A stretch of DNA of 64,000 nucleotides from Candidatus Iainarchaeum sp. (GTDB lineage: Archaea > Iainarchaeota > Iainarchaeia > Iainarchaeales > GCA-2688035). The translations under genes and the position numbers were made by a program. The stretch's first letter is position 1, and each line of letters begins with the position of its first letter. The stretch is from assembly GCA_002688035.1 (NCBI GenBank), contig NZBU01000002.1:24120-88119 (forward strand). Reading direction: 5' to 3'. Under the pieces are notes generated by a model. It worked only from the letters and a program-made list of their open reading frames with translations, did no database searches and was not told the DNA's origin. Of this stretch, positions 28,484-52,740 are shown in pieces.

Positions 28484-29713
28484 ATGGAAAACGAAGATAT
28501 GAAGATTGTGATTGTTGGTCACGTAGACCACGGTAAGAGCACACTAATTGGAAGGCTTTTATTTGATACTGGGTCTCTCCCAGAATCGAAGATCGATGAA
28601 TTGAAGAGAACCTGCGAAGCTTTGGGTAGGGAACTGGAGTTTGGATTTGTAATGGATAGCTTGGAGGAAGAGCGCGACCAGGCAATAACCATTGACACAG
28701 CACAAACATTCTTCAAAACAGACAAACGAGATTATGTTATCATTGATGCGCCTGGACACAAAGAGTTCATAAAAAATATGATTACCGGGGCCTCCCTTGC
28801 ACAGGCAGCAATACTGCTTGTTGACGCAAAAGAAGGAGTGCAAGAACAGACTAAAAGGCACGCATACATTCTGAGTTTACTTGGAATGAAACAAGTTATT
28901 GTTGCAATAAACAAAATGGACTTGGTTGAATATAAGCAGGAGAGGTTCGAAGAAGTTAAGGGAGACGTTGAAAAGTTTTTAGAATCAATTGATGTAAAGC
29001 CCGAATATGTTATTCCTGTTTCGGCAAAAGAAGGGGACAATATTGCAAAGAAAGGCGAGAACATGAGTTGGTGGGCTGAGGATACAATCTTGCAGTCACT
29101 TGATTCTTTTATTGTTGAAAAGAGAGAAGCTTCAACAGCTCTGAGGTTTCCGGTGCAAGATGTTTACCATATTGATGGCAAGCGCATTGTTGCAGGGAGA
29201 ATTGAAAGTGGGAAAATTAGTGTTGGAGACAAAGTTGTTCTACAACCAACCAATATTGAGGCAACTGTGAAGACCATTGAAGTATTCATGGACGAGGACA
29301 GGAAAGAAGCTGGCGCAGGAGAATCAATTGGAATTACTACAGAGGAACCAATTTTTGCTGATAGAGGACAAGTTATTTGCACAAAAGAAGCTTTGCCAGG
29401 AATTGGGAACGAAGTAGAGGCAAACATTTTCTGGATGTCAAAAACTCCACTTGAAAAAGGCGAAAGGATTACATTGAAGTGCGCAACACAGGAAATTGCT
29501 TGCAGTGTTGCAGAAATTAGAAAGAAGTTTGATAGTAGTTCACTAGAACAGCTTGAAGAGAATGCTGAGCAGTTGAAAGAAACCGAGGTCGGAGAAGTTC
29601 TAATTAAAACTGACAAATCAATTGCATTTGATTCTTTCAATGATATTCAGGAGACAGGGCGCTTTGTGCTTGAGCGTGGAATGGATACTGTTGCAGGCGG
29701 GATAATAGACTAG
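28484..29713 (+). CDS. cysN: Sulfate adenylyltransferase subunit 1-like GTPase (CysN/EF-1A family)
   Basis: IVIVGHVDHGKSTLIGRLLFDTGSLPESKI...MDSLEEERDQAITIDTA...DAPGHKEFIKNMITGA...INKMDLV; no APS-kinase domain attached. Confidence 0.93.
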   Translation: MENEDMKIVIVGHVDHGKSTLIGRLLFDTGSLPESKIDELKRTCEALGRELEFGFVMDSLEEERDQAITIDTAQTFFKTDKRDYVIIDAPGHKEFIKNMITGASLAQAAILLVDAKEGVQEQTKRHAYILSLLGMKQVIVAINKMDLVEYKQERFEEVKGDVEKFLESIDVKPEYVIPVSAKEGDNIAKKGENMSWWAEDTILQSLDSFIVEKREASTALRFPVQDVYHIDGKRIVAGRIESGKISVGDKVVLQPTNIEATVKTIEVFMDEDRKEAGAGESIGITTEEPIFADRGQVICTKEALPGIGNEVEANIFWMSKTPLEKGERITLKCATQEIACSVAEIRKKFDSSSLEQLEENAEQLKETEVGEVLIKTDKSIAFDSFNDIQETGRFVLERGMDTVAGGIID

Positions 29714-39403: not shown

Positions 39404-40738
39404 TTAAACGAGTGAAATCGCCCTCACAATGCTTATTTTTCCAATTAGCCTTGCTGGCAACTCAAGCAGTCTTCCATCTGCAAGCCAGAATGCTATAAGA
39501 CTCTGCAAGTTAAATGGATCAGCCAACTGTGGCGTTGAGGCAATGAAAAGCACGAAAAGCAATAAGGTGTAAGCCGATAGCACTATGAGTGGCACCTTTA
39601 GTTTTGGTTTTTGTTTAAGCAGTTGTGCTATTCCAAGAACAATCAATGGGAAAAGGATAATGACAAACCTGTTTCCAAAACTCCATCCTGAGTGCCACGC
39701 AGTCCATGCACTGTATACCCAGAAATTCAATCCAACAAAGGAAAGTAAAAGCCATTTTTTCTCATTTGAGAAAAACCATAGGCCTGCGATTCCCACGAGA
39801 ACCAATGGAGCCCACCACAAGACTCCATGACTCAAATCAAAGAGAACCTCGACAATATGAACCGGCAAAAAAGAATCAAACACGGCTGGATTATTGGCTG
39901 CAGTGGTATTAAATCCTGCCAAAAAAGGACTTCCAAACTGCACAGTGAAATAAAGCATCATTAGAATCACAAATGGTATGAATGACCCTAGGAAAATTGC
40001 AGCGTTCTTGTATTGTTTCTTGAATAAATAAAATAGAACCATGGGCAGCGCAAAAATTCCGGCAGTATAACGCGTAATTGTAAGCAATCCAAGAATAATG
40101 CCCTCCTTTTTTGCGCTAGGACTTTTCAAGATAGTATAAATAAACCAAGTCATTAGGCCCACTTCAAATGCATGACTATAAGCAATGTCTGCAGAAGCAT
40201 ACCAAAGTAGTGGTGTTCCAAAAAAAGCAAGAAGAACTGCTAAAGAAGCATTTTTCCCAAAATATTCTCTAACAAACTTTACCAACAGAACTAGTCCACC
40301 TAAAACAAATAATAGGGCTGTGAGAGTAAACCCAAGTTGATTGACTAAGGGAGCGCCTCTTTCATTGACAAAGAAGTCATCAGCAATACGAAGCAGGGGG
40401 ACCTCTGCTAATCCAAGGGAAACTATGTATAAAGGTAAAGAAAATAATGCAGACCCTGGTGCATAGTGTGTAACATATTTTTTTGTCACTTCGTTGAATC
40501 GCACAAAATTTGGAGTGGCCTCAGGTTCCCCAGGACTAGCGATAGCATTGAAGCGAATTTGATTCTCAAGATTTGGAGGAAAAGTGTGATCTTTTCCAAT
40601 TGATTCTAGCAAAGCATAGTAACCAAATCCATCCCCTGAAACAACCGGTGAGAAGAATAAGAATATGAATAGTACAATGGAACTGATTACTGCAAGCTCT
40701 TGTTTTGAGTATTGTTTGAAGTTCAAGTAGTCACCCAA
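39404..40738 (-). CDS. Polytopic membrane protein, GT-C/GT39-like glycosyltransferase
   Basis: Many TM segments, DGFGYYALLESI acidic motif in first loop, HYAPGSALFSLPLYI. Confidence 0.65.
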   Translation of the reverse strand: MGDYLNFKQYSKQELAVISSIVLFIFLFFSPVVSGDGFGYYALLESIGKDHTFPPNLENQIRFNAIASPGEPEATPNFVRFNEVTKKYVTHYAPGSALFSLPLYIVSLGLAEVPLLRIADDFFVNERGAPLVNQLGFTLTALLFVLGGLVLLVKFVREYFGKNASLAVLLAFFGTPLLWYASADIAYSHAFEVGLMTWFIYTILKSPSAKKEGIILGLLTITRYTAGIFALPMVLFYLFKKQYKNAAIFLGSFIPFVILMMLYFTVQFGSPFLAGFNTTAANNPAVFDSFLPVHIVEVLFDLSHGVLWWAPLVLVGIAGLWFFSNEKKWLLLSFVGLNFWVYSAWTAWHSGWSFGNRFVIILFPLIVLGIAQLLKQKPKLKVPLIVLSAYTLLLFVLFIASTPQLADPFNLQSLIAFWLADGRLLELPARLIGKISIVRAISLV

Positions 40739-42447: not shown

Positions 42448-43380
42448 TTAGGTGTTTTCCTTGAACCAATCAATGGTTTTCTTCAAACCATCAACCCAGT
42501 CAACCTTTGGCTCCCAGCCAAGCTGCTGCTTTGCAAGGGATATATCAGGCTTTCTTCTTGTAGGATCGTCCTTTGGCAGAGGATTGTGAACAATCTCACT
42601 TTTACTGCCGCAGAGTTCAACCATTTTCTCTGCGAGCTCGAGAATTGTTATCTCTGCAGGATTCCCAATGTTAACAGGATTAGTATAATTTGAAGCCATC
42701 AAAGCCATTAGGCCACGCACGTTGTCATCCACGTAACAGAAAGACCTTGTTTGGTCTCCTTCTCCAAAGACAGTTATTGGCTTGTCTCCAAGAGCCTGCT
42801 TTACAAATGTTGGAATAACTCTTCCATCGTTTGGTCTCATCTTTGGTCCAAAAGTATTGAAGATTCGCACAATTCTAATGTCGACATCGTGAACTCTGTG
42901 ATATGCCATCATCATTGCCTCTGCAAAACGCTTTGACTCATCATAGCAGGAGCGAAGGCCAATCGGGTTAACATTTCCCCAGTAAGATTCTTTTTGTGGA
43001 TGCTCCAGTGGATCGCCGTAAACCTCGCTTGTAGAAGATTGGAGTATACGTGCCTTGTTCTTCCAGGTAAGGTCTAACAAATTCTTAATGCCATAAGAGC
43101 CAGCCAGAAGTGTTTCGATTGGAATAACCTGGTAGTCAATTGGTGATGCAGGGGAAGCAAGGTTGTAGATCTCGCTAACTTTCTCGTTCAAATCAATTGG
43201 CTGTGAAATATCATGTTTGATGAACTCATAGTTCTTGTTGTCCATGAAGTCCTGAATGTTTTTCTCGGTTCCTGTCACAAGGTTGTCCATGCAAATTACT
43301 CTGTTGCCCTCGTCCAATAGTTTTTCTGTTAAGTGCGAACCAATAAAGCCCGCTCCACCGCTAACCAAAATCGTTTTCAT
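42448..43380 (-). CDS. UDP-glucuronate decarboxylase-like SDR (UDP-xylose synthase family)
   Basis: ILVSGGAGFIGSHLTEKLLDEGNRVICMDNLVTG...YNLASPASPIDYQ...STSEVYGDPLEHPQKESYWGNVNPIGLRSCYDESKRFAE...RIFNTFGPKMRPNDGRVI. Confidence 0.93.
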   Translation of the reverse strand: MKTILVSGGAGFIGSHLTEKLLDEGNRVICMDNLVTGTEKNIQDFMDNKNYEFIKHDISQPIDLNEKVSEIYNLASPASPIDYQVIPIETLLAGSYGIKNLLDLTWKNKARILQSSTSEVYGDPLEHPQKESYWGNVNPIGLRSCYDESKRFAEAMMMAYHRVHDVDIRIVRIFNTFGPKMRPNDGRVIPTFVKQALGDKPITVFGEGDQTRSFCYVDDNVRGLMALMASNYTNPVNIGNPAEITILELAEKMVELCGSKSEIVHNPLPKDDPTRRKPDISLAKQQLGWEPKVDWVDGLKKTIDWFKENT

Positions 43381-43384
43381 TCAA

Positions 43385-44137
43385 TCACCCTGGAAAATCC
43401 TTTTTTGCTTCTTCATAAGTTTCTAAACTGCCAATGTCAAACCACTTGTCTTCTGGCTTGTCAAACACAAAGCCGTAAACCGGAGTTCTTTGATACAACC
43501 AGTCTACAAAGTCCCCTGTTTTGTCTGGTGGGTTTCCCTCGTCCAAATATTGTTTTATCATTGCAACTCCTTCTTTTGTGTAAGCGTAAATTCCCACACT
43601 ACAAAGAGTTGACTTTGGCTCAGGTGGCTTCTCAACAAAGCCAACCACGCGATTAGAATCATCAATTTCTGGATTACCCATTTTTTTGGCTTCCTCAATA
43701 CTTCTAGTATCATACAACCCGATTACAGGCGTTCCCTTTTCCTTGAAGAACTCTGTTAGATCTGTTAGCTCGAATGTGAAAAGGTTGTCAGAGTTAACAA
43801 TAATTATTTCTTCCTCGATTTTCTCACTTTCAATTACAAAATTTATGTCTCCCATGCTCCCAAGCCGATCTTCATTACTTGTTGTACCATCATTAAGTAT
43901 TTTGATTGGAATCTTTGACTCAAAGCCCTTGCTCCACTCTACAAACTGGTCGTAGAACTTTGCGTTTGTAACCACAAAAATTTCGTTCACATCACTAATC
44001 TCAGAAATCTTTCCAATAACATGCTCAACCATTTTCTTTCCCTTAACTTCTAGCAAGGGCTTGGCCTTGTCTTTTGTAAGTGGATACATTCTCGTCGCGT
44101 ACCCAGCCGCGGGAATTATTGCCTTCATCACATACAC
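43385..44137 (-). CDS. Sugar-phosphate nucleotidyltransferase
   Basis: KAIIPAAGYATRMYPLTKDKAKPLLEVKGKKMVEHVI; IVNSDNLF. Confidence 0.92.
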   Translation of the reverse strand: MYVMKAIIPAAGYATRMYPLTKDKAKPLLEVKGKKMVEHVIGKISEISDVNEIFVVTNAKFYDQFVEWSKGFESKIPIKILNDGTTSNEDRLGSMGDINFVIESEKIEEEIIIVNSDNLFTFELTDLTEFFKEKGTPVIGLYDTRSIEEAKKMGNPEIDDSNRVVGFVEKPPEPKSTLCSVGIYAYTKEGVAMIKQYLDEGNPPDKTGDFVDWLYQRTPVYGFVFDKPEDKWFDIGSLETYEEAKKDFPG

Positions 44138-44138
44138 C

Positions 44139-45065
44139 TCAAGAAACTATTTTTGGTTTGAAACAATTAAATTTCTCACTTAACACATTAAAAGCATTAT
44201 CATTTTCGTAAAGGATTGCGATTGCGCCACCGCTTCCCGCAAGCTTGGCGCCCAGTGCTCCCTCAGCCAAAGCGGTTTCAATTATCTCCAAGTCTGCCTC
44301 ATCAACAGTAAAGTACTTCTTTCTAAATTCAAAGTTCTTGTTCATTAGTTTCCCGAGGCCTTTCCAGTCCTGATTCGCCAAACATTTCTTTCCTTCAGTA
44401 CAAAGGGAAGCAAGTTTGTCCATTTCTTCTTTTATCCAGTTCTCGCCGCGCAAAAACCTGTTTCGCAAATCATTGTGTACAAGCGCACTCTTTTTGGAGA
44501 GATCACTGCAGGCAATAAAGAATGGAACCTCATTGAAATCCAATGGCTCTATTCTTGCAAATGGATCTGCTTCTTTTTGGAATTCTTTGCCTGCAAAGTC
44601 CATGAAAGCAATTCCCTGGAATGAAATAATATAGCGATCCTGTGGCCCACATGCAATTCCCAGTTCGTTTGTCTCAATTTTCATTGCAAGCTCAGCCATA
44701 TCATACTTGCTCAGCTTTATTCCTGAGAATCCTTGGAGCGCGCGCAGCGCTGCCATAATAATTGCAGTGCTACCAGCTAAACCAGATTCCTTTGGAATAG
44801 TAGAATTATATGTGATCTCAAATGGCTGGTTCTGCAAACCCAAATAGTTAATGCAAGCCTTAACCAAATCATGCTTTCCATTATAGTGGGTATTGTGTTT
44901 CTCTGTTCCCTCATAATTAGAATTCAAAACTAAATCGTGGTTTTTTTTAAGTGAAAGTTCTACTCCCTTATCTATTGTGCAGCTAATTCCCTTGCCACCA
45001 TAGATGTCGCTTGGGTTACCCAGCAAGCCAACGCGTGCAAAAGCCTTAGTCTCTATTGTATTCAC
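44139..45065 (-). CDS. GHMP kinase, glucuronokinase-like
   Basis: RVGLLGNPSDIYGGKGISCTI, IPKESGLAGSTAIIMAALRAL, ELGIACGPQDR, FMDF, NRFLRGENWIKEEMDKLASLCTEGKKCL...LMNKNFEFRKKYF, LAGSGGAIAIL; closely follows the plant GlcAK architecture as I recall it. Confidence 0.82.
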   Translation of the reverse strand: MNTIETKAFARVGLLGNPSDIYGGKGISCTIDKGVELSLKKNHDLVLNSNYEGTEKHNTHYNGKHDLVKACINYLGLQNQPFEITYNSTIPKESGLAGSTAIIMAALRALQGFSGIKLSKYDMAELAMKIETNELGIACGPQDRYIISFQGIAFMDFAGKEFQKEADPFARIEPLDFNEVPFFIACSDLSKKSALVHNDLRNRFLRGENWIKEEMDKLASLCTEGKKCLANQDWKGLGKLMNKNFEFRKKYFTVDEADLEIIETALAEGALGAKLAGSGGAIAILYENDNAFNVLSEKFNCFKPKIVS

Positions 45066-46357
45066 TTGCCCACACCAACGTATTCAAATCCCAATTCTTT
45101 TAAATTAGCCTCGTCAAGGAAGTTTCGGCCATCAAACACGAGTTTTCCGCGCATAAGTTCCTTGACTTTTGCGAAGTCCAATTCGCCAAATTGCTTCCAC
45201 TCTGTAAGTAGGAGCAATGCGTCTGCTCCCTTAACTGCTTCATAAGCGTCATCATTCAACTCTATTTTGTCCCCGAATATTCTCTTCGCGTTTTCTTCTG
45301 CCTCAGGATCTGTTGCCGCAACAACCGCATTCTCTGCCAGCAAAGCATTGATAATGTCAATGCTTGGCGCAAAACGCATATCATCAGTATTAGGTTTGAA
45401 AGCTAGTCCCAGAACCGCAACCCTCTTGTCTTTCAGAATCCAGAGTTTTTCCTCTATCTTTTTCACAAAGTTTTTTCTTTGCTGTTTGTTCACTTTCTGC
45501 ACCTCTTTTAGAATTCCGAAATCATAACCATTTTTTTCTGCAATGCTGACAAAAGCATCAACATCCTTTGGAAAACAAAATCCACCATAGCCAATTCCTG
45601 CATTCAAAAAACTTTTTCCAATCCTATTGTCTAAGCCCATTCCTTTTGAAACATGTTCAATGTTGGCCCCTGTTTTCTCACAGAGGTTTGCAACCGCATT
45701 AATGAAAGAAATTTTTGTTGCAAGGAAACTGTTTGAAGCGTGCTTGATTATTTCTGCACTTCTAATGTCGGTAAAAACAATGTTTGATTTGAATGGCGCA
45801 TATAATTCTTCCATAACCTTTTTTGCATGCTCGCTGTCTGTTCCAATAACAATTCTATCTGGTTTCATAAAGTCTTCAACCGCACTTCCTTCTCTTAGAA
45901 ATTCTGGGTTGCTCACGACCTCAAACTTCACATTATGGGGATTATAATCATGCAAAACTTTGTTGACTCTTTCACCTGTCTCAACTGGAACAGTACTTTT
46001 CTCCACTACCACTTTTGGTGTTTCTGCGGCCTCCGCAATGCTTCGCGCAACGTTCTCCACAAAACTCAAGTCTGCTTCTCCGTTTTCTTTTGGAGGGGTG
46101 CCAACTGCAATAAAAATTACGTCGGATGCTTTTACCGCGGAATCAAAATCAGTTGTGAAAGATAGTCTTCCGGCCTTTGCATTCTTTTCAATTACTTCCT
46201 CAATGCCTGGCTCGTAAATTGGTGAGATGCCTTTGTTGAGTTTCTCTATTTTGCTCTCGTCAATGTCAACACAAACAACCTTATGCCCAATCTCGCTCAA
46301 GCAAGCTCCACTAACTAATCCGACATAACCTGTTCCAATTACCGCTACATTCAACAA
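45062..46357 (-). CDS. ugd: UDP-glucose 6-dehydrogenase
   Basis: NVAVIGTGYVGLVSGACLSEIGHKVVCVDID; VVEKSTVPVETGERV; GIGYGGFCFPKDVDAF; LGLAFKPNTDDMRFAPSIDII. Confidence 0.95.
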   Translation of the reverse strand: MLNVAVIGTGYVGLVSGACLSEIGHKVVCVDIDESKIEKLNKGISPIYEPGIEEVIEKNAKAGRLSFTTDFDSAVKASDVIFIAVGTPPKENGEADLSFVENVARSIAEAAETPKVVVEKSTVPVETGERVNKVLHDYNPHNVKFEVVSNPEFLREGSAVEDFMKPDRIVIGTDSEHAKKVMEELYAPFKSNIVFTDIRSAEIIKHASNSFLATKISFINAVANLCEKTGANIEHVSKGMGLDNRIGKSFLNAGIGYGGFCFPKDVDAFVSIAEKNGYDFGILKEVQKVNKQQRKNFVKKIEEKLWILKDKRVAVLGLAFKPNTDDMRFAPSIDIINALLAENAVVAATDPEAEENAKRIFGDKIELNDDAYEAVKGADALLLLTEWKQFGELDFAKVKELMRGKLVFDGRNFLDEANLKELGFEYVGVGK

Positions 46358-46413
46358 AAACCGCCTCTAGGCAAATAAGCTATGAAAAAAGGAAAGATGG
46401 AAAGCTTTTAATA

Positions 46414-46448
46414 TGTGAATGCCTCATATATAGTATGATAAAGTATGA
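46414..46448. promoter_or_regulatory. Candidate RHH operator: four half-sites phased at 10 bp (TGTGA, TCATA, TATGA, TATGA)
   Basis: 46414 tgtga, 46424 tcata, 46434 tatga, 46444 tatga, overlapping a TATA-like element and the start codon of the RHH-nucleotidyltransferase gene. Confidence 0.45.
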
Positions 46449-47260
46449 CAAGAGAAAGAGTTACAATTACGATCCGGAACGATTTACTCAGGCAAGTTGA
46501 CAGACTAGTTGATGGCCTAACCATTAGAAGCAGAAGCCAGGCTATGGAGTTCCTGTTAAGCAAGCATTTGAGCGACTTCAAGCTGGGCAAAGCCCTAATT
46601 TTGGCAGGTGGCAGAAAGAAAGATGTCTCAATTAAGGGAGCGCCCAAATTCGCAGCAAAGCTAAATGGGAAATGTCTGTTGCATGAGGTGATGGACAGTA
46701 TTCACGAGTATAATGTTAGCAGTTTCATGGTTTATGTGGACAGTTTTGCCGATACAATAAGAGACAGAATTAATTCCGAGGACCCACACTACCATGTTGA
46801 CTTCTTAGAGGGAAAAGCAGGCAGCGGAACTATTGCTCCCCTCCTGCAAGCAAAAAGTAGCCTTAAAGATACATTCCTCCTTGCCTACGGTGATACCCTA
46901 ACAAGCATTAACCTAAACGACATGCTTGCATTCCACAGAAAGAACAATGCGATCGCAACAATTGCCCTCACAACTGTCAGTAATCCAAAGGATTATGGAG
47001 TGGCAGTACTGCAGGGCGACAAGATTGTGGAATTTGAGCAAAAGCCAAAGAAAGAAGCACATAGCTTCATGGTTAATGCTGGCTACTTCCTCTTCGAGCC
47101 AGAGATATTTAGGCATATAGGGAGGGACATGAAGAACATTGAAAGAGATTTGTTTCCAACACTTGCAAAACGCGGTCTTCTTTATGGTTACACTTTCCAG
47201 GGCCGCTACCTCAACATCAATTCTGCAACAGACTTAGAAAATGCAAAGGCATTATTCTAA
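46445..47260 (+). CDS. Ribbon-helix-helix domain fused to nucleotidyltransferase-like domain (putative sugar-nucleotide-responsive regulator)
   Basis: N-terminus RVTITIRNDLLRQVDRLVDGLTIRSRSQAMEFLLSKHL (RHH); then ALILAGG...KLNGKCLLHEVMDSI...LLAYGDTLTSINL...YGVAVLQGDKIVEFEQKPKKEAHSFMVNAGYFLFEPEIF (NTP transferase fold). Confidence 0.88.
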   Translation: MTRERVTITIRNDLLRQVDRLVDGLTIRSRSQAMEFLLSKHLSDFKLGKALILAGGRKKDVSIKGAPKFAAKLNGKCLLHEVMDSIHEYNVSSFMVYVDSFADTIRDRINSEDPHYHVDFLEGKAGSGTIAPLLQAKSSLKDTFLLAYGDTLTSINLNDMLAFHRKNNAIATIALTTVSNPKDYGVAVLQGDKIVEFEQKPKKEAHSFMVNAGYFLFEPEIFRHIGRDMKNIERDLFPTLAKRGLLYGYTFQGRYLNINSATDLENAKALF

Positions 47261-48924: not shown

Positions 48925-49647
48925 ATGAATCTTGGAATCAAAAAAGCATTTATTTTGGCAGGTGGAGAGGGCACTCGCTTGCGCCCTATCACTTATGAAA
49001 TGCAAAAGGCCATGATGCCTGTCCATGGCAAACCAGTTTTGCAGTGGAACATCGAACTTTGCAAGCGCTATGATGTGAAAGAAGTTGTGCTTGCCATTGG
49101 CTACAAACACGAGCAAATCGAGGACTATTTTGGGAATGGGAAAAAGTTTGGCTTGAAAATCAAGTATAATGTTGAGAAAAAATTTTTGGGAACGGCCGGA
49201 GCACTAAAGTTTGCTGAGAAGGATTTCAAGCGCGAGAAAAAGTTCATCATGATGAATGGTGATGAGTGCAAGACCGTTGACTTCAAGGCTTTAGATGGTG
49301 TGTTTGAAAGAAATGGGGCAACTGCCGCAATCGCACTCACCCCAATTAACTATACTGCTGCCGGCGGCCTTGTTAAAACCAGAAACGAAAAAATACTTGA
49401 CTTTGATGAGAAGCCAAAGGGTGAGAGAAAGGGCAGGAAGATGATTAATGCCGGCGCATACATCTTGTCATCAAAGATTTTGGATTATATTCCTGCAAGG
49501 AAAATGATTTCAATTGAGAAAGAAACTTTCCCACAGCTTGTTGAGGAAGGAAAAGCCTTTGCAAAGCCCTGTGTAAAACAGTTCTTCCAAACAGATACTT
49601 TTGAAAGATATGAGAAGGCAATCTTCAATTGGAAAGGATGGAAATAA
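48925..49647 (+). CDS. Sugar-phosphate nucleotidyltransferase
   Basis: Start ATG 48925: MNLGIKKAFILAGGEGTRLRPITYEMQKAMMPVHGKPVLQWNIEL. Confidence 0.94.
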   Translation: MNLGIKKAFILAGGEGTRLRPITYEMQKAMMPVHGKPVLQWNIELCKRYDVKEVVLAIGYKHEQIEDYFGNGKKFGLKIKYNVEKKFLGTAGALKFAEKDFKREKKFIMMNGDECKTVDFKALDGVFERNGATAAIALTPINYTAAGGLVKTRNEKILDFDEKPKGERKGRKMINAGAYILSSKILDYIPARKMISIEKETFPQLVEEGKAFAKPCVKQFFQTDTFERYEKAIFNWKGWK

Positions 49648-51131: not shown

Positions 51132-51887
51132 ATGATTGGAATTATTGGCGGCTCAGGTTTGGATGACCCAGACATTCTAAAGAATGCAAAGGATGTTGAA
51201 GTTGAAACTTCTTTTGGAAAACCTAGTTCTCCCTTAAAGATTGGTGAGATTGGAGGAGTAAAGGTTTGTTTGATTGCAAGACACGGGAGAAAGCATACCA
51301 TCCCTCCAACGCAGGTCAACAACAGAGCAAACATCCAAGCATTGAAAGATCAGGGTTGTAAAGCAATTTTGGCTACAACTGCCTGCGGTTCCTTGCGAAA
51401 AGAAATTGGTAGGGGCGACCTTGTAATACTTGACCAGTTCATTGATTTCACAAGACTTAGAAAGCTCACTTTCTTTGAGGAATTCCAAGAGGGCGGGGGC
51501 GGTCCAAAGCATGTTGCAATGCCAGAGCCATTTGCACAAGAGCTAAGGGAGCTACTGATTGGAACTTGCAAGGATTTGAAGCTGAAGTTCCATGAGAAAG
51601 GAACTGTTGTCACAATTGAGGGCCCAAGGTTTTCTACGAGGGCAGAATCAAGGATGTTTAGAACCTGGGGTGCAGATGTAATTAATATGTCTGTTGCACC
51701 AGAGTGCATTTTGGCTAACGAGGCAGAAATTCCTTATGCTGCTATTGCCATGAGCACTGATTATGATAGTTGGTGTATTGAGGAAGCGCCAGTAGAGTGG
51801 AAAGAAATATTAAGAGTATTCGGTGCGAACGTAGAAAAAGTAACAACTCTAATTGTAAAGACAATTCCAAGTATTATTGAAAACTAA
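51132..51887 (+). CDS. mtnP: S-methyl-5'-thioadenosine phosphorylase
   Basis: IGIIGGSGLDDPDIL, ARHGRKHTIPPTQVNNRANI, EGPRFSTRAESRMFRTWGADVINMSVAPECILANEAEIPYAAIAMSTDYD. Confidence 0.94.
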   Translation: MIGIIGGSGLDDPDILKNAKDVEVETSFGKPSSPLKIGEIGGVKVCLIARHGRKHTIPPTQVNNRANIQALKDQGCKAILATTACGSLRKEIGRGDLVILDQFIDFTRLRKLTFFEEFQEGGGGPKHVAMPEPFAQELRELLIGTCKDLKLKFHEKGTVVTIEGPRFSTRAESRMFRTWGADVINMSVAPECILANEAEIPYAAIAMSTDYDSWCIEEAPVEWKEILRVFGANVEKVTTLIVKTIPSIIEN

Positions 51888-52740
51888 TAAGGGGCAAGAA
51901 ATCATATTGCTCTCTTAGATCTTCATAATCTTCTGGAACCCACCCATATTCAATATTCTTCTTTATCTGACAAGGCGTTTTCATTCCATAAATCCAAGAG
52001 CGATAAGTTTCCCAATGCATACCCAATTCCTTAGCCGATCCTCTAAGACTTTTTCCACTATGAAGATAGTGTCTCAAAACGTCCCAGTACTTCTCAGAGT
52101 CATGAGCTTTGCAATTTCTCAAATAAGCGATAGCTTCAGAAAGCTTTTTTCTTTTGTAACTTATAGCAAATCCAATATATTCTTGATATAATTCCAGATT
52201 TCTTAATAGTGATATTATCAATTTAGCCGAACCAAATTTTTTTATTACTACTTTACTTTGAATCCCAATATCTAACAAAAGCTGCTTGATTTGTTTAAGC
52301 AATGAAACATTATTTTGTGTAATAACTATCTGTCTTCGGTTATAAATCACGTCAACACTTCCCTCGGCATCTGAAAATCCCCTAATAAATCTGGCTTTTA
52401 TAAACTTGTCACCTTTAAGAATAAAGTCTGGAATTTCCTTATTATTTCTTGTTAGATTAATAAGTCTTTCAGCAAGGTTTGTACTATGAACAAAACAAGT
52501 AGGGTACTTTTTCAGTTTAATGGGTGCGAAAAGCCCATACGTTTTTGCAATAAGCTTTGCAAAATGTTGACAGAAGTCTAACTCCCTTACTTTCAATCTA
52601 ACTAAATTGTTTTTATAGATATAACCATCACCTAAAATTATGCCAACTATCTCCGCCTCATCAAGATTATCCTCGTAAGTCTGAGGAATTTCAATTTTTT
52701 TAAAGTTTGCAGGTCTTCTCAAAGGAAAACACCCCTGCAA
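51874..52740 (-). mobile_element. Free-standing LAGLIDADG homing endonuclease-like ORF
   Basis: EAEIVGIILGDGYIYKNNLVRLKVRELDFCQHF and KARFIRGFSDAEGSVDV are two LAGLIDADG-like motifs; 14-nt convergent overlap with mtnP. Confidence 0.82.

Follow-up and report, generated by a model that had tools for sequence, protein, structure and literature searches.

We identified, on the forward strand of the window (the whole 64,000-nucleotide stretch of DNA that was analysed), a gene in which a ribbon-helix-helix (RHH) DNA-binding domain is fused to a nucleotidyltransferase (NTase) domain that has lost catalytic residues and is maintained by purifying selection. It forms a conserved pair with a divergently oriented UDP-glucose 6-dehydrogenase gene, and a conserved operator lies in the spacer between them; each of these features is directly evident in the sequences compared. 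The product is likely to be a one-component regulator that occupies an array of half-sites through its RHH domain and exerts feedback through the dead NTase, which would sense a sugar phosphate or NDP-sugar.

Results

An RHH domain is fused to a nucleotidyltransferase-like domain

The gene (46445-47260, + strand) has an ATG start, a 271 aa product and orthologues in ~20 related genomes. The original prediction, made before any database search, placed an RHH domain at residues ~1-45 of this reading frame, fused to a degenerate NTase; this held, with the ORF exact and with support from Pfam, conservation and fold. The RHH domain (residues 1-46; 46445-46582, +) matched the Pfam profile RHH_1 (PF01402) over residues 5-42 at 17.9 bits, slightly below the curated cut-off of 20.5. 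Although this score is sub-threshold, the assignment is secure because 23 of the 39 members of the RHH-NTase family matched RHH_1 independently, the segment varies least of all parts of the protein within the degenerate clade (mean column entropy 0.87), the RHH domain of E. coli NikR was its sole sequence match in the PDB (weak by itself, E 0.46), and residues 1-49 are predicted to fold as an extended strand followed by helices at 12-23 and 30-47, the beta-alpha-alpha arrangement consistent with RHH. NikR also ranked best, again weakly (E 0.92), in a Foldseek search with the predicted residues 1-49. The segment contains a beta strand (RVTITI) with recognition residues R5/T7/T9 and a helix-B N-cap at R30-S31, and R5, T7, R30 and S31 were each invariant (19/19) in the degenerate-clade alignment. 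Membership of the RHH superfamily, defined by a beta-alpha-alpha fold, a conserved strand and helix-B N-cap, and a profile match, was met. Chance resemblance was rejected, the domain being kept in all orthologues and tied to the operator described below.

The remainder of the protein (residues 48-271; 46586-47257, +), presumed to be the ligand sensor, matched the NTP_transferase profile PF00483 over residues 49-233 (E 1.3e-17, 64.6 bits vs a cut-off of 21.2), which establishes homology to sugar-1-phosphate nucleotidyltransferase domains, and its best sequence match in the PDB was GMPP beta. The full-length AlphaFold model, built from four sequences, was poor (mean pLDDT 54) and unsuitable for ligand docking; its Foldseek matches were NTases, but with TM scores of only 0.3-0.4. 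Pfam searches gave no match to the nickel-binding domain NikR_C, so the protein does not meet the definition of the NikR family. A domain search likewise gave no match to a left-handed beta-helix domain, and the protein ends after the NTase domain.

The window comes from an archaeal bin of 745 kb that is 61% complete. Close, full-length orthologues (49-72% identity) were found in 20 of 92 genomes of the phylum, spanning several of its families, with one of the 20 a fragment at a contig end; a relative in a Candidatus Diapherotrites MAG shared 62% identity, and a single orthologue was found outside the phylum (G136, 43-44% identity). More distant fusions (25-37% identity) are widespread, with whole-length matches in ~22 of 29 genomes of another archaeal phylum. 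Homologues without the N-terminal segment could have refuted the original prediction, but each of the 19 non-redundant, full-length sequences in the degenerate clade carries the RHH domain, as do about 20 more distant fusions. No report of an RHH-NTase fusion was found in the literature searched, which excluded most subscription papers. The orthologue of one genome (G012; L039 about 8558, -) has ATA where its relatives have the ATG start, with the RHH reading frame kept and an in-frame stop just upstream, and may reflect a sequencing error, an unusual start or loss of the start codon.

The nucleotidyltransferase domain is very probably a pseudoenzyme under selection

Residues of the 19 full-length degenerate members were mapped by alignment to the Arabidopsis GMPase VTC1, whose numbering is used here and whose residue roles were taken from PMC9168903. 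The pyrophosphate loop (residues 55-68, GGRKKDVSIKGAPK; 46607-46648, +) has lost the GTR motif and is at least two residues shorter, with Lys68 kept. The window protein reads LAGGRKKDV--SIKGAPKF in place of LAGGxGTRLxPxTxxxPKP, and the claim that the GxGTRLxPxTxxxPK signature had been replaced thus held, the altered sequence being as originally quoted. Arg at position 60 was found in 0/19 degenerate members vs 10/11 G-loop-intact fusions; Thr at the Thr12 position and Arg at the Arg13 position were each absent from all 19 degenerate members, and the Thr and Arg of this loop were present in 10 of the 11 intact fusions. Codon 257 (47213-47215, +) encodes Asn instead of the second catalytic Asp (VTC1 Asp219), as in every degenerate member (19/19). 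On the base side, the Asn109 position carried Asn in just one of the 19, and the loss of base-contacting residues at the Asp80 and Asn109 positions makes nucleotide binding of any kind uncertain. Residues kept in all 19 included the first catalytic Asp (VTC1 Asp111), Gly85, Glu195 and, on the sugar side, Gly146 and Lys163; the sugar-side Glu162 position held Glu or Gln and the Lys23 position Lys or Arg throughout. The sugar-side Asn173 position was Asn in 15 members and Ser in 4, and the Lys196 position was Lys or Arg in 17/19.

The domain does not meet the definition of an active sugar-1-phosphate nucleotidyltransferase (a GxGTR loop and two catalytic Asp), nor, with catalytic residues lost, does the protein meet that of a PutA-type trigger enzyme (RHH plus a competent enzyme domain). 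Enzyme function is very likely gone from the degenerate clade, an inference made from sequence alone without an activity assay; on the same footing, the fold has very likely been retained and sugar binding may have been. Column entropy within the clade was greatest in the nucleotide-side regions of residues 47-125 (1.47-1.73; the loop and the rest of the N-terminal half), vs 0.97 on the sugar side, and was lowest in the RHH segment. Because dN/dS of the NTase part was 0.04-0.13 in close pairs with unsaturated dS, pseudogene decay was rejected; with catalytic residues gone, the domain is read as a pseudoenzyme maintained by purifying selection.

The gene is divergent from a nucleotide-sugar dehydrogenase operon

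In all 18 genomes with enough flanking sequence, the RHH-NTase gene is divergent from a gene for UDP-glucose 6-dehydrogenase (45062-46357, -), its presumed target. The dehydrogenase scored 580 bits with the NCBIfam TuaD model, short of the cut-off of 700, and passed the cut-off of a nucleotide sugar dehydrogenase subfamily model. Genes 2 to 4 of the operon, all on the minus strand, encode a GHMP-family sugar kinase (44139-45065; PF00288/PF08544), a conventional NTase (43385-44137; PF00483, E 9.7e-33) in which AAGYATRMYPLT...WFDIG is intact in the alignment, and a nucleotide-sugar epimerase/dehydratase of the SDR family (42448-43380; PF16363/PF01370). The original prediction had described a divergent operon for UDP-GlcA and UDP-xylose formation with a true NTase; the dehydrogenase and the NTase held, and the identification of the SDR as a UDP-xylose synthase is merely putative. 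Operon content varies, with fructose-bisphosphatase or aldolase/phosphatase genes elsewhere in place of the kinase, NTase and SDR of the window. In one family (L049, L051, L052), an RHH-free NTase directly follows the dead RHH-NTase gene, and the divergent operon includes a fructose-1,6-bisphosphate aldolase/phosphatase (identified in L049), which ties the circuit to gluconeogenesis. Elsewhere in the window, a LAGLIDADG-domain protein (51874-52740, -; PF14528, E 2.2e-15), possibly a homing endonuclease remnant, is encoded beside a nucleoside phosphorylase-like gene.

A conserved putative operator lies in the divergent spacer

The spacer contains a putative operator, TCATATATAGTATGATAAAGTATGA (46424-46448, +), that had been missed in the original prediction, as had the RHH-bearing relatives with an intact NTase and the apparent split of a bifunctional ancestor considered below. 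It comprises three 5-bp half-sites 10 bp apart, TCATA (46424-46428), TATGA (46434-46438) and TATGA (46444-46448, overlapping the ATG), and the consensus TCATA-N4-GTATGA-N4-GTATGA or a close variant was found in all orthologous spacers. The 15 half-site positions were almost invariant across 19 orthologues and, in 12 divergent genomes, carried 1.21 bits per position vs 0.19-0.23 in the flanks. A possible, weak fourth half-site (TGTGA, 46414-46418, +) lies 10 bp upstream of the first, an offset at which about half of the orthologues have TATGA, TGTGA or AATGA. The start-codon context does not account for GTATGA: the other two half-sites are located further upstream, and genomes whose third half-site does not coincide with the start codon (L005, L036, L038, L039) retain it nonetheless. 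A near-palindromic TATA-like box (TTTTAA, 46406-46411, +) lies 18 bp upstream of the operator, and such a hexamer was found 17-19 bp upstream in 18/19 orthologues; from this spacing, the expected start site falls within the operator, which extends as far as the ATG. Being near-palindromic, the box could possibly serve the divergent dehydrogenase promoter as well.

The window contained one operator match at ≤3 mismatches (0.03 expected). When 40 whole genomes were scanned at ≤2 mismatches, all 19 genomes with a dead orthologue were matched, and the 20 matches were all at RHH-NTase promoters. In two of these genomes (G038, G056) the match sits at a G-loop-intact paralogue, the dead gene's own site having >2 mismatches, and in G062 both genes were matched. 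At this threshold there was no match in any of the 20 genomes that lack the gene or in G049, where only an intact paralogue was found, and the reversed pattern, run as a control, matched at 7 scattered places. Since matches were confined to RHH-NTase promoters, we infer that the regulatory link is likely local, involving one regulator and one divergent spacer, together with the intact paralogue in genomes that have it. No further sites indicative of a wider regulon were found at ≤2 mismatches in the 40 genomes, although weaker, two-half-site targets are not excluded. A search of the window for the two-half-site motif gave 5 matches counting both strands vs 0.66 expected; single-mismatch copies of TCATA-N4-GTATGA lie at 28767-28781 and 39967-39981.

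The RHH strand and the half-site pair as in NikR

The NikR operator is GTATGA-N16-TCATAC (PMC7055735), and its half-site is identical to the one found here. Among RHH-NTase genes of the wider family that encode an R-x-T-x-T type strand, 24 were captured by the search pattern, and 16 of these had at least two half-sites in 10-bp register upstream (0.1 expected), vs 0/5 of the genes with other strands; the pattern missed some genes, that of the window among them. In NikR, the corresponding contacts are made by Arg3/Thr5/Thr7. Exactly 10 bp separates successive copies of TCATAC, four in all, in G052. Because strand and half-site pair as they do in NikR, the RHH domain of this protein is likely to read the spacer site, an inference for which there are no binding data. 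NikR itself was rejected as the binder for most genomes, as profile searches found no NikR_C in 6 of the 8 tested (motif-bearing G000, G028, G018, G060, G066 and G032, of which G000, the source of the window, is just 61% complete).

Fusions L095 and L097, which have other RHH strands (KITIKL/EITIDI), share the upstream element AAAACATATAACTAA, possibly an operator of altered specificity. A second, separately degenerated RHH-NTase lineage (L069:3493-4239, L068:496-1266, L066:8198-8932), with the pyrophosphate loop largely deleted, is divergent from nucleotide-sugar epimerase-like genes, and L069 has four TCATAC half-sites upstream in an exact 10 bp repeat.

Intact fusions and a paralogue without RHH

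Fusions of RHH to a G-loop-intact NTase occur in other archaea (L094-L108, L054, L057; L055 and relatives), and those of another phylum precede a PgmG-type phosphoglucomutase/phosphomannomutase. In two NTase-domain trees, the dead clade formed one group (support 100/99-100). The window also encodes a paralogous NTase without RHH, with an intact GxGTRLxP loop (48925-49647, +), and its clade nests among proteins that bear RHH and mostly have an intact G-loop (supports 96/89, 96/86 and 99/97 in one of the trees), from which we infer RHH loss. A single origin of the fusion was not rejected (AU p 0.47), nor was it proven, and whether the dead and intact fusions arose in separate events is not settled by the tree. 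In the paralogue clade (the window copy, L044, L045, L046, L048, L055), W-x-D-x-G has become x-x-(P/Q)-T-D or P-I-D; the second catalytic Asp is apparently shifted by two residues, and activity should not be assumed.

Discussion

The original prediction, a transcription factor that senses a sugar ligand through a repurposed enzyme domain, is supported by these analyses, none of the refuting conditions that could be checked having held; its DNA binding, its ligand and its lack of pyrophosphorylase activity are inferred. The RHH domain would bind the array of TATGA/TCATA half-sites, which recur once per helical turn in the spacer shared with the dehydrogenase operon. Because the operator covers the gene's own start site and overlaps its ATG, the bound protein is expected to act as an autorepressor. 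Support for DNA binding and for autoregulation is good, and both are likely, in the absence of data on dimerisation or binding. That the protein also controls the dehydrogenase operon is an inference from the shared spacer. Co-repression is predicted there, as the array abuts the divergent TATA/BRE region, lying over the BRE position and near the TATA box at 46406-46411; activation is less likely but remains possible, since the array is upstream of that promoter's TATA box. Occupancy of the DNA, the ligand and the sign of control at the dehydrogenase promoter all remain inferences from MAG data, with no experiment.

The C-terminal domain would descend from a GDP-mannose-pyrophosphorylase-like NTase, noncatalytic and with the sugar-1-phosphate side of the pocket kept, and would bind a sugar phosphate or NDP-sugar of the pathway. 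UDP-glucose and UDP-glucuronate, substrate and product of the divergent enzyme, are the most plausible ligands, with a sugar-1-phosphate a further candidate; this suggestion rests on gene neighbourhood only and is no more than possible. Ligand binding would alter how the RHH dimers are spaced or oligomerised and so provide feedback control.

Two alternatives are unlikely but survive best. The protein could be a regulatory subunit resembling GMPPA, forming a hetero-oligomer with an active paralogue (48925-49647 or 43385-44137) and reporting its occupancy to DNA instead of sensing a ligand alone. GMPPA is indeed an inactive, GDP-mannose-binding paralogue that regulates GMPPB (PMC11228364), and in the family of L049, L051 and L052 the active paralogue is the gene immediately after the regulator; however, GMPPA-GMPPB assembly is driven by a left-handed beta-helix domain (PMC9168903), which this protein lacks, and paralogue and regulator are not adjacent in the window. 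Alternatively, the NTase remnant could serve oligomerisation only, making the protein a ligand-independent autorepressor that constitutively restrains the divergent promoters. Such an oligomerising role is common among NTase-fold proteins and no ligand has been demonstrated, but the greater conservation of the sugar side than of nucleotide-side residues 47-125 fits a pocket better than a scaffold.

A bifunctional trigger enzyme like PutA, with an NTase still active through a re-built site and an RHH domain adding autoregulation, is very unlikely. RHH-bearing, G-loop-intact NTases in related archaea, beside phosphoglucomutase/phosphomannomutase, and retention of the first catalytic Asp, the EKP Lys and the Glu-Lys pair speak for it; against it are the lost or deleted GTR loop and the Asp-to-Asn change, both in 19/19, the altered base-side residues, and the conventional NTases in the same locus. 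A different RHH regulator, NikR for example, could be the one that uses the motif, with the gene's own RHH doing something else; this is suggested by the shared half-site and is all but excluded by the six motif-bearing genomes without NikR_C (one incomplete), the 10-bp instead of N16 spacing, and the restriction of the motif to RHH-NTase genes.

Our preferred reading, a feedback regulator with a dead-enzyme sensor, has partial precedents. Like NikR (PMC7055735), the protein would be a one-component regulator with an N-terminal RHH domain containing an RVTIT- strand, a C-terminal sensor and a GTATGA/TCATAC half-site; unlike in NikR, the sensor has an NTase fold instead of the metal-binding NikR_C domain, and half-sites recur every 10 bp, whereas the two of NikR are separated by 16 bp. 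Trifunctional PutA also joins RHH to a metabolic enzyme domain and represses its own gene (PMC5293562), but PutA is an active, proline-oxidising enzyme, whereas the enzyme domain here is dead and unrelated. GMPPA offers an analogy for a catalytically dead NTase as NDP-sugar sensor (PMC11228364), NDP-sugar binding being inferred here; GMPPA differs in acting on an enzyme by protein contact, in having a beta-helix domain and in lacking a DNA-binding domain. The intact RHH-NTase fusions share domain order, length, a homologous RHH and, in R-x-T-x-T members, similar upstream half-sites, and differ in their intact GxGTRLxPxT loop and, in one phylum, their PgmG-type mutase neighbours.

The simplest history, which is possible, is that a bifunctional RHH-NTase ancestor split into a regulator and an enzyme. 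A bolder reading, against which we would lean slightly, is that an early archaeal RHH-NTase trigger enzyme was a self-regulating NDP-sugar synthase that was duplicated in this phylum, the RHH-bearing copy becoming the dead-enzyme NDP-sugar sensor and the RHH-free copy (48925-49647) the enzyme. If true, this would be a sequence-traceable case of subfunctionalisation, in which a trigger enzyme gave rise to a repressor and a separate enzyme.

To our knowledge, little is known of NDP-sugar sensing by a dedicated transcription factor in archaea, and the regulators of DPANN archaea are almost uncharacterised. The locus is a complete, testable unit, consisting of a protein, the operon that it presumably targets, an operator resolved to the base pair and a few candidate ligands, and it joins in one protein two precedents, the RHH-enzyme fusion of PutA and the dead-NTase sensor of GMPPA. 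With RHH-NTases ranging from intact to dead among living archaea, the evolution of an enzyme into a sensor could be followed.
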